Source: Streptomyces sp. G44
GTDB taxonomy: Bacteria; Actinomycetota; Actinomycetes; Streptomycetales; Streptomycetaceae
Assembly: GCF_016905445.1 (NCBI RefSeq)
Contig: NZ_JAFEXF010000026.1
Coordinates: forward strand, 1 to 52,926
Length of the DNA: 52,926 nt
Direction of reading: 5' to 3'
The translations under genes were made by a program, and so were the position numbers. Positions within the stretch are counted from its first letter, which is position 1, and every line of letters begins with the position of its first letter. The notes below the pieces were generated by a model. The model made no database searches. It was not told the origin of the DNA and saw only the letters and a list, made by a program, of their open reading frames with translations. This document shows, in pieces, positions 35,045 to 37,739 of this stretch.

Positions 35045-36451
35045 ATGTCGGTAGGCGAAGAGGTCCGCGAAGAGTCGCAGAAGCCGCAGCAGAGCCTCGG
35101 CACATCGGCCGCGCGGAATCTGGCCACCACCACCAAGACGGCACCGCAGATGCAGGAGATCAGCTCGCGCTGGCTGCTGCGGATGCTGCCCTGGGTGCAG
35201 GTGCAGGGCGGCACGTACCGCGTGAACCGCAGGCTGACCTACTCGGTCGGTGACGGCCGGGTGACCTTTGTGAAGACGGGCGACAACGTCGAAGTCATCC
35301 CGGCCGAGCTGCGCGAGCTGCCGGTGCTGCGGGACTTCGACGATCAAGAGGTGCTCACGAGGCTGGCGCGGCGCTGCCGGCAGCGGGAGTTCGCCGCGGG
35401 CGACATCATGACCTCCTTCGGGAGCCCGGCGGACGAGGTCTTCCTGATCGCGCACGGCCGCGTGGAGAAGATCGGCACCGGCCCCTACGGCGGGGACGCG
35501 GAGCTCGGGACGCTCGCCGACGGCGCCTACTTTGGCGAGCAGGCACTCCTCGACTCCGAGTCCATCTGGGAGTTCACCGCGCGGGCGGTGACGGCGTGCA
35601 CCGTGCTCACCCTGCCGAGGCAGGACCTCGATGAGATCGCGGGGCGCAGCGAATCACTGCGCGGCCATCTCCAGCGGCTGCGGTCCATCCCGGAGCAGCG
35701 GACCAACAAGTACGGGGAGGCGGCCATCGACCTCTCCGCCGGACACGTCGGCGAGGCGGTGCTGCCGGGCACCTTCGTGGACTACGAATCGGCGCCCCGC
35801 GAGTACGAGTTGAGCGTCGCCCAGACCGTTCTGCGCATCCACACGCGCGTGGCCGACCTCTACAACCAGCCGATGAACCAGACGGAGCAGCAGCTGCGGC
35901 TCACCATCGAGGCGCTCAAGGAGCGCCAGGAGCACGAGCTCATCAACAACCGCGAGTTCGGGCTCCTGAACAACTGCGAGTACGACCAGCGGATTCAGCC
36001 GCACGACGGCGTGCCCGGACCCGACGACATGGACGAACTGCTCAGCCGCAGGCGCGGATCGAAGCTCTTCCTCGCCCACCCGCGCGCGATCTCCGCGTTC
36101 GGGCGCGAGCTGAACAAGCGCGGCCTCGTCCCCGAGACCATCGACATGGGCGGGAACAGGATCCCGACCTGGCGCGGGGTGCCGATCTTCCCGTGCAACA
36201 AGATCCCGGTGACCGAGGCCCGCACGACTTCCATCATCTGCATGCGTACGGGCGAGGAGGAGCAGGGCGTCGTCGGTCTGCGGCAGAGCGGCATCCCGGA
36301 CGAGATCGAGCCGAGCCTGTCCGTGCGGTTCATGGGCATCAGCGAACAGGCGATCATCTCGTACCTGGTGTCGACCTACTACTCCGCCGCGGTGCTCGTG
36401 CCCGACGCGCTCGGCGTCCTGGAGAACGTCGAGATCGGGCGCTGGAAATGA
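35045..36451 (+). CDS. family 2B encapsulin shell protein with cyclic-nucleotide-binding-like domain
   Basis: 468 residues from ATG 35045 (GGAGGGC upstream). Forms an icosahedral HK97-fold shell. Between the N-terminal arm (SARNLATTTKTAPQMQEISSRWLLRMLPWVQVQGGTYRVNRRLTY) and the rest lies a cNMP-binding-type beta-roll, residues ~95-205 (LRDFDDQEVLTRLARRC, GDIMTSFGSPADEVFLIAHGRVEKI, GAYFGEQALLD). The C-terminal part (YDQRIQPHDGVPGPDDMDELLSRRR, GVPIFPCNKIPV) is the shell fold of Family 2B, also known from the EshA and 2-methylisoborneol gene clusters. Followed 10-100 bp later by a polyprenyl synthase, the known class of cargo for this family. The shell gene is preceded by a 280-bp region with only promoter-like content. 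Confidence 0.92.
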   Translation: MSVGEEVREESQKPQQSLGTSAARNLATTTKTAPQMQEISSRWLLRMLPWVQVQGGTYRVNRRLTYSVGDGRVTFVKTGDNVEVIPAELRELPVLRDFDDQEVLTRLARRCRQREFAAGDIMTSFGSPADEVFLIAHGRVEKIGTGPYGGDAELGTLADGAYFGEQALLDSESIWEFTARAVTACTVLTLPRQDLDEIAGRSESLRGHLQRLRSIPEQRTNKYGEAAIDLSAGHVGEAVLPGTFVDYESAPREYELSVAQTVLRIHTRVADLYNQPMNQTEQQLRLTIEALKERQEHELINNREFGLLNNCEYDQRIQPHDGVPGPDDMDELLSRRRGSKLFLAHPRAISAFGRELNKRGLVPETIDMGGNRIPTWRGVPIFPCNKIPVTEARTTSIICMRTGEEEQGVVGLRQSGIPDEIEPSLSVRFMGISEQAIISYLVSTYYSAAVLVPDALGVLENVEIGRWK

Positions 36452-36551
36452 GCCCTGGAGCATGTCCGTGGCCGCGGCGGGGCCCTTCGCCCCCGTACGT
36501 GCCCGCACCTCGGGGAACCGCCGCCGTCCGCAGCCGTTCGGGGGTGCGTCC

Positions 36552-37739
36552 ATGACCGACACGACGACGGAGCTGCCGGACGCGACGGAAGGGGTGACAC
36601 CGATCGGCACCGTGGGGGTGGTCGGCGGGGGAGCCGTGGGGGCTGTGGACGTGGGGGCGGTGGGAGCCGTGGGTGTGGGGGTGCCGGTACGGAGCTCCGG
36701 CGACGGGCACGAGGCGTCGGAGATCCTTGCCGCGGCGCGTGTGTGCGTCGACCCCGAGCTGCGCAGGGCAGTCGACTCGTTGCCCGGGTCCCTGCGCGGG
36801 GTGGCGCGCTACCACTTCGGGTGGGAGCAGGCGGACGGCACACCGGCCGCGGGGAACGCGGGCAAGGCCATCAGGCCGGCTCTCGTGCTCGCCGCGGTGC
36901 GGGCGCTCGGCGGGGAGCCCGCCACGGCCGTGCGGGCCGCGGCGGCCGTGGAGCTGATCCACAACTTCACGCTCCTGCATGACGACGTGATGGACCGCGA
37001 CACCACGCGCAGACACCGGCCGACCGCCTGGACCGTGTTCGGCGACCCCGCCGCGATCCTCGTCGGTGACGCCATCCAGGCGCTGGCGCAGCGGTTGCTC
37101 GCCGAGGATCCGCATCCGGCGGCCCCGGCGGCGGCCGCCCGCCTGGCCCGCTGCGTCATGGAGCTCTGCGCGGGGCAGCAAGCGGACTGTGCCCTGGAGA
37201 GCCGCCGCCCCGAGGATGTCACGCTCGACGAGTGCCTGGCCATGGCCGAGGCCAAGACCGGCGCGCTGCTCGGCTGCGCGTGCGCGCTCGGGGCGCTGTA
37301 CGCGGGCGGGGGGCCGGAGGAGGTCGACGCGCTCGACGGGTTCGGCCGGGAGGCCGGGCTCGCCTTCCAGCTCATCGACGACGTCATCGGCATCTGGGGC
37401 GACCCCGACCACACGGGCAAGCCTGCCGGGGCCGACCTCGCGGTCCGTAAGAAGTCCCTGCCGGTGGTCGCCGCGCTCGCCTCGGGCACGCCGGCCGCGG
37501 CCGAACTGGCCGAGCTGTACGGGGGGCCGTCCGGCGCCGGTACGGACATAGGAGAGAGAGGGGAGTTGGAGCGGGTGGCCCGTGCGGTGGAGCGTGCGGG
37601 CGGGCGTGACTGGGCGCAGGCGCACGCAGCCGACCGGATGTCGAGGGCGGTGGGCCAGCTCGCCAGGGCGGTTCCCGAACCGGAGGCAGCCGGTGGGTTG
37701 TTGGCGCTGGCCGAGTTCGTGACGCGGCGTACGCATTGA
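36552..37739 (+). CDS. polyprenyl diphosphate synthase, likely encapsulin cargo
   Basis: 395 residues from ATG 36552 (GGGGG 7 nt upstream); an in-frame ATG at 36462, 10 nt after the encapsulin stop, would add 30 residues. Condenses isopentenyl diphosphate with an allylic diphosphate. FARM LLHDDVMDRDTTRRHRP holds the DDxxD, and LAFQLIDDVIGIWGD the second DDxxD/E (IDDV..D). The first ~45 (or ~75) residues are Gly/Val/Ala-rich and predicted disordered, matching the N-terminal cargo-loading segments of Family 2 encapsulin cargos. Chain length (GPP, FPP or longer) cannot be read. The cluster lacks the methyltransferase and 2-MIB synthase here, so the final product is unknown. Confidence 0.88.
   Translation: MTDTTTELPDATEGVTPIGTVGVVGGGAVGAVDVGAVGAVGVGVPVRSSGDGHEASEILAAARVCVDPELRRAVDSLPGSLRGVARYHFGWEQADGTPAAGNAGKAIRPALVLAAVRALGGEPATAVRAAAAVELIHNFTLLHDDVMDRDTTRRHRPTAWTVFGDPAAILVGDAIQALAQRLLAEDPHPAAPAAAARLARCVMELCAGQQADCALESRRPEDVTLDECLAMAEAKTGALLGCACALGALYAGGGPEEVDALDGFGREAGLAFQLIDDVIGIWGDPDHTGKPAGADLAVRKKSLPVVAALASGTPAAAELAELYGGPSGAGTDIGERGELERVARAVERAGGRDWAQAHAADRMSRAVGQLARAVPEPEAAGGLLALAEFVTRRTH

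Follow-up and report, generated by a model that had tools for sequence, protein, structure and literature searches.

The window analysed here, a stretch of 52,926 nucleotides from Streptomyces sp. G44 (assembly GCF_016905445.1, 583 contigs; contig NZ_JAFEXF010000026.1), carries a two-gene locus on the forward strand, in which a gene for a Family 2B encapsulin shell protein (35045–36451, +; 468 aa) is followed after a gap of 100 bases by a gene for a prenyl diphosphate synthase (36552–37739, +; 395 aa), its predicted cargo. The shell gene opens with an ATG at 35045 with GGGAGG upstream and its stop codon ends at 36451; the synthase gene opens with an ATG at 36552 and its stop codon ends at 37739. 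Re-reading of the open reading frames returned exactly the span, 35045–37739, given for the pair in the original prediction, which had been made from the letters of the window. The locus was compared with 80 orthologous shell loci, several truncated by record ends and all in records of Streptomyces save one labelled Actinobacteria bacterium (closest shell, S. huasconensis, 96%), and with samples of 101 genomes from the genus, 148 from the class and 120 from another actinobacterial family (the G171 family). Labels such as L016 (loci), G171 (genomes), C572 (contigs) and P0001 (synthase relatives) are our own.

The assignment of the shell protein is confirmed by profile searches. The protein scores 779.9 bits against the Family 2B shell model NF041163 (cut-off 400; translation begun two codons early, at 35039), contains a SrpI-like HK97 shell domain (PF19307; 35690–36442, +) at 456.9–458.9 bits (cut-off 22.8), the sole match to that domain in the genome, and reaches 60.5 bits against the cyclic-nucleotide-binding domain PF00027 (cut-off 27.5). 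The Family 2B shell, the encapsulin fold expected from a profile search and the cyclic nucleotide monophosphate (cNMP)-binding-like domain that had been read from the sequence are thus all borne out. The best solved relatives are 9bhu, 9bix and 9bje (E about 4e-186 or lower). AlphaFold modelled the shell with low confidence (mean predicted local distance difference test, pLDDT, 51.5) and the model was dropped as structural evidence, so that the fold is assigned through relatives in sequence whose structures are solved; by homology with these, the protein would self-assemble into an icosahedral particle of 60 subunits. Ratios of nonsynonymous to synonymous substitution (dN/dS) among shell orthologues range from 0.09 to 0.21 (14 pairs), and an alignment of 32 orthologues delimits a conserved N-arm at residues 17–43 (SLGTSAARNLATTT...; 35093–35173, +).

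The cNMP-binding-like domain is inserted at residues 95–205 (35327–35659, +), as placed by PF00027 and the alignment. The phosphate cassette P-R-[STA] is absent from all 32 aligned orthologues, one of which has an arginine elsewhere ahead of the Trp–Glu pair; W175 and E176 are invariant in the 32, and a Trp occupies the aligned position in all three solved Family 2B shells. With no arginine motif in its cassette, the inserted domain is unlikely to have cAMP or another cyclic nucleotide as its ligand. PMC12407261 states that the inserted domains of Family 2B shells do not bind cyclic nucleotides and are positioned above the two-fold pores, and the cyclic nucleotide that the original prediction had put forward as a ligand is disfavoured on both counts. 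As in related shells, the domain would lie over the two-fold pore, where it may gate small molecules, the ligand being something other than a cyclic nucleotide. A role in defence was set aside, PADLOC giving only weak matches to this domain (≤22.1 bits).

The downstream protein scores 497.9 bits against NF041169 (‘family 2 encapsulin cargo polyprenyl transferase’; cut-off 450) and 198.9 bits against PF00348 (polyprenyl_synt), in agreement with the prenyl synthase predicted directly behind the shell. Its closest solved chain, both by sequence and by fold, is 3nf2, a prenyl synthase of S. coelicolor that is 44% identical over the fold (best Foldseek match; TM-score 0.81 by query length and 0.94 by target length), and archaeal geranylgeranyl diphosphate (GGPP) synthases are among the best structural matches found by Foldseek. 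The first aspartate motif, DDVMD (36981–36995, +), has Phe at −5 and no insertion, and a second aspartate pair follows (QLIDD; 37377–37382, +). Phe at −5 and Thr/Ser at −4 of an uninterrupted DDxxD recur in 118 of the 118 relatives in which the motif was found (of 120). In type-I GGPP synthases, an aromatic residue at −5 is combined with a DDxxD motif free of insertions; judged by this chain-length rule, by the residues at −5 and −4 and by the archaeal structural matches, the enzyme is likely a type-I prenyl diphosphate synthase making GGPP (C20). A 3nf2-type paralogue in the same genome sits on a different contig (C572) from the only shell and reaches 406 of the 450 bits set for NF041169. The genome has four prenyl synthases besides the encapsulin-linked one, which is thus not its sole isoprenoid route.

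This pairing is of an already published kind, of which the locus is a well-formed case. Family 2B operons with polyprenyl transferases number 900 in PMC8346489, 888 of them in Actinobacteria, and their enzymes are described there as having disordered N-termini of 50–100 residues with no conserved tag; PMC8049743 gives a polyprenyl diphosphate synthase gene as the commonest neighbour of Family 2b shells. The locus shares with these operons the inserted cNMP-like domain, the adjacent synthase, a synthase N-terminus predicted to be disordered and the actinobacterial host, and differs in nothing that defines the kind, its own tail being Gly/Val/Ala-rich and repeat-bearing with few relatives alike. 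Given these published operons, a shell and prenyl synthase standing without the enzymes for 2-methylisoborneol (2-MIB) are not unusual. NF041167, a cargo model for single-domain cyclases whose length led us to take it as the 2-MIB synthase type, gives a best match of 43.6 bits (cut-off 400) across the whole genome. The original prediction was therefore right that no 2-MIB synthase is found; the layout is both published and common among genomes of the genus. No terpene cyclase gene lies beside the pair, and the genome has three Terpene_syn_C_2 (PF19086) domains, all accounted for by an epi-isozizaene synthase and a geosmin-synthase-like enzyme of two domains.

Among the matches listed, a Family 2B shell over cut-off occurs in 99 of the 101 genus genomes and an NF041169 synthase in 76, and 75 of these 76 synthases directly follow a shell, in the same orientation and at 50–471 bases (between ends aligned to the hidden Markov models, shell rows being taken only for genomes with a synthase), the exception being G076. 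The synthase is likewise present at 75 of the 80 orthologous shell loci, and record ends account for two of the five misses. In the class sample, again among the matches listed, 17 genomes have a synthase over cut-off and 35 a shell, seven of the 35 shells being split matches that skip the span of the inserted domain and are Family 2A-like; a synthase over cut-off occurs in 52 of the 120 genomes of the G171 family.

The shell is likely the orthologue of EshB (SCO5249), a placement based on synteny with what we take to be the gene order around SCO5249 in S. coelicolor. An epi-isozizaene synthase at 3358–4557 (+), 31 kb from the shell (NF045483, 695.5 bits; cut-off 675), assists in aligning the window with the chromosome of S. 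coelicolor. The structures 9bhu, 9bhv and 9bi0, presumably of the 2-MIB (EshA-type) Family 2B shell, match the protein at 679.5 bits (residues 16–469 of the translation from 35039); unlike that system, this genome has no match above cut-off to the single-domain cyclase cargo model. EshB of S. coelicolor is likewise cyclic-nucleotide-binding-like and is a paralogue of EshA (PMC3878966). The xylulose-kinase shells of S. lydicus belong to the same shell family and form a two-component system (PMC12407261), whereas no second shell gene was found within 10 kb of this one and the genome, assembled in 583 contigs, has a single PF19307 match.

The synthase begins with a tail predicted to be disordered (residues 1–49, pLDDT below 50; 36552–36698, +), in which Gly, Val and Ala make up 61% of the first 46 residues and imperfect tandem repeats occur within the Gly/Val/Ala part (36629–36681, +). 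The long N-terminus noted in the original prediction is real; its reading as a cargo-loading segment is weak. Among the other relatives whose tails number 10 residues or more, the median Gly/Val/Ala fraction is 0.27, as against 0.61 here, and seven of them reach at least 0.5, four (P0002, P0003, P0004 and P0006) being among the six best-scoring matches. The tail is little conserved among synthase relatives. Of three usable comparisons, two show it evolving more rapidly than the body (dN/dS 0.65 against 0.19 with L008, and 1.13 against 0.25 with L010), the third, with only 13 tail codons, running in the opposite direction (0.22 against 0.23 with L009); the body comparison with L007, in which 215 codons aligned and the frame of the draft is possibly broken, was left out.

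Among the loci read from the G171 family, the synthase starts 42–48 residues before the YHFGW motif in 24 of 27 shell-linked cases, exactly 44 in 16 of them, and this distance is 86 residues in the synthase of the window. The starts come from a rule biased towards short tails, in which the closest ATG lying 40 or more residues ahead of YHFGW is chosen; 38 of the 55 loci L100–L154 yielded one (17 dropped). The shell stop codon lies at most 29 bases from the chosen ATG in 16 of the 24 short-tailed cases, where a longer tail would overlap the shell gene, and 42–357 bases from it in the other eight. The short-tailed proteins start with such sequences as MATTEEMTGG, MSITEDTTRG and MAPTEEMTEG, which by eye resemble the Streptomyces tip MTDTTTDMTE, and MTD, MTE, MTT or MGE opens 71 of 120 synthases, counted among tails of at least 10 residues. 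From these comparisons, a long disordered tail appears to be neither required for shell linkage nor specific to it. The Gly/Val/Ala tail is an unlikely packing tag, given its repeats, the few relatives like it, its faster evolution in two of three comparisons, the equal tail length in the paralogue group (below) and the near lack of a tail in most shell-linked synthases of another family; the ten N-terminal residues and the surface of the enzyme are the better places to look for a tag.

We consider it probable that the synthase is packed inside the Family 2B shell and makes GGPP there, docked by its tip or its body. The C20 product, geranylgeranyl diphosphate, would be made in the lumen by an enzyme held through a short, partly conserved N-terminal tip (of the MT-[DE]-T type) or through its folded body, with the Gly/Val/Ala stretch playing no part in docking. 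As no terpene cyclase gene adjoins the pair, GGPP would then leave the shell for GGPP-using pathways encoded elsewhere.

Several results weigh against this reading. No experimental demonstration of encapsulation was found for a synthase of such a type, and the enzyme reaches 358.1 of the 475 bits required by the GGPP synthase IdsB equivalog NF045549, for which reason it was not filed as IdsB. The likely EshB assignment of its shell draws on synteny and gene numbers. Tail medians are 26 residues among 120 cargo-type relatives (P0001–P0120) and 28 among the 120 best database relatives of the paralogue (P0121–P0240; Mann–Whitney p = 0.80), with starts as annotated and a position away from the shell known, in the second group, for the paralogue of this genome only; the cargo-type tails are the more variable (standard deviation 19.7 against 6.7). 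None of 53 de-duplicated tails resembles the shell N-arm at p < 0.05 against shuffles, and the idea that the tails mimic it was given up. For five synthases over the NF041169 cut-off (L106, L110, L111, L112 and L132), the stretch read, about 1.5 kb on each side, contains no shell match, so that a match to this model was not taken as proof of encapsulation. Three loci (L016, L025 and L065, the last from a metagenome-assembled genome that may be incomplete) keep a conserved shell with no synthase over cut-off in the genome examined and have a GNAT gene directly after the shell. Their shells are under constraint as for other shells (dN/dS 0.13–0.21 in tested pairs), and the shell may therefore not be kept only for the synthase; these loci reflect either recent loss of the synthase or a shell with another use.

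That the synthase works in the same compartment and makes a different chain length, C15 or longer than C20, is possible, if on the unlikely side. The missed IdsB equivalog (358 against 475 bits) would fit such a product, as would the description in PMC8346489 of encapsulin-linked synthases as diverse, with varying product length, but the aromatic residue at −5, the five-residue first aspartate motif and the archaeal GGPP synthases among the best folds argue for C20.

It is unlikely that the genes are linked for co-regulation alone, with the synthase free in the cytoplasm or on the exterior of the shell. The equally long tails among relatives of the C572 paralogue, which is not beside the shell, the very short tails of 24 of the 27 shell-linked synthases in another family, the five synthases over cut-off with no nearby shell and the shells retained without a synthase would all fit such an arrangement. 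Against it stands the tight adjacency of the two genes in 75 of 76 genus genomes, among the matches listed, and in 27 loci of another family, and PMC12407261 counts terpene cyclases among the studied encapsulin cargo enzymes.

A second enzyme might also be packed together with the GGPP synthase. The shell N-arm holds LGTSAAR (as SLGTSAAR), a word shared with the cyclase motif GPTGLGTSAAR published in PMC8346489, and the linker of the genome's own geosmin-synthase-like cyclase (L167; genome G000, contig C109, 2297–4402, −), which is unlinked to the shell and scores 1143 bits against the two-domain cyclase cargo model NF041168 (cut-off 1200), carries GPTGLGTSAAD. With this word in both proteins, loading in trans is conceivable, such that the only Family 2 shell of the genome would hold the GGPP synthase by its ten-residue tip and the geosmin-type cyclase by a GPTGLGTSAA segment copying the N-arm, a proposal that we regard as decidedly improbable. 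Near-full-length NF041168 matches occur in 28 of the 148 class genomes, only six of the 28 reaching 1200 bits. Among the matches listed, 27 of these 28 genomes have a Family 2 shell over cut-off (that of G121 split and 2A-like), the 28th, G197, having a shell piece of 252 bits that runs into the record end; of the other 120 class genomes, again among the matches listed, eight have a shell, six of them 2A-like, and this association of shell and cyclase is confounded by kinship. The cyclase lies within 3 kb of the shell in 16 of 17 cases outside Streptomyces and in none of 11 within it, among the matches listed. GLGTSA or a close form was present in 28 of the 39 cyclase loci read and in 15 of the 16 shell-adjacent cyclases outside Streptomyces, the miss being a broken piece. 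The word is absent from the eight Streptomyces cyclases closest to that of this genome, among those read, and its loss in close relatives that also have the shell speaks against loading in trans. Were the cyclase nonetheless a cargo, an earthy-odour-type enzyme would share a compartment with isoprenoid supply.

A shell that serves mainly as an EshA/EshB-type developmental regulator sensing a small molecule, with the enzyme secondary, is very improbable. In its favour, promoter activity of eshB (SCO5249) and eshA (SCO7699) goes up as development proceeds (PMC3878966), eshA is reported to be dispensable for 2-MIB biosynthesis (PMC6428758) and shells persist without a synthase; against it, the P-R-[STA] cassette is missing, cyclic nucleotides are reportedly not bound by domains of this type (PMC12407261) and the synthase stands behind the shell at 75 of the 80 orthologous loci.

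Around the pair, genes named by eye as sigma-factor-like, RsbW-like and Na/H antiporter genes are present in 73 each of the 80 loci, a PALP gene in 74, an amidase gene in 69 and a GNAT gene in 62. The GNAT and PALP genes were considered as operon members and look like ordinary chromosomal neighbours, as GNAT stays beside the shell in the three synthase-free loci and PALP is on the opposite strand. Several variants of the locus were seen elsewhere. L042 (5442–6845) has an in-frame stop inside the matched shell range, a broken shell or an assembly error; counted from the shell start, the first stop comes some 830 bases ahead of the opening of the synthase frame. G263 has tandem prenyl synthases (contig C274, 3168–5339, −) at 481.7 bits (over the NF041169 cut-off) and 419.9 bits (below it), with a shell match upstream of the first (L144). 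The synthase of L106 (G121) is short-tailed, and the same genome has its split, 2A-like shell match less than 300 bases from a geosmin-type cyclase.

Upstream of the shell gene, a conserved block (34915–34990, no strand assigned; approximately GATCCATTCCCGCTCTTTTGTGTAATGGC) has runs of positions kept in 80–90% or more of 80 aligned upstream regions, that of the window included, and is a probable promoter or regulatory region; no sigma-70-like match was found in the region of the block. Opposite the shell gene, a match to Rfam family RF02735 (Sernc350; 35075–35583, −) scores 136.7 bits (gathering threshold 50), and the same family matches in six of six other shell loci tested. PMC3827479 reports the Sernc350 RNA as antisense to SACE_3976. 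That gene, which has a cyclic-nucleotide-binding domain and belongs to a geosmin cluster, has the look of a Family 2B shell gene taken for a transcription factor. Since the RNA family derives from a transcript antisense to a gene resembling the shell gene, the match is expected from conserved coding sequence and was not kept as a separate RNA signal.

The short-tailed natural synthases and the three shell-only strains provide ready-made test cases for the loading of prenyl synthases into Family 2B shells and for the part that these shells play in isoprenoid flow.

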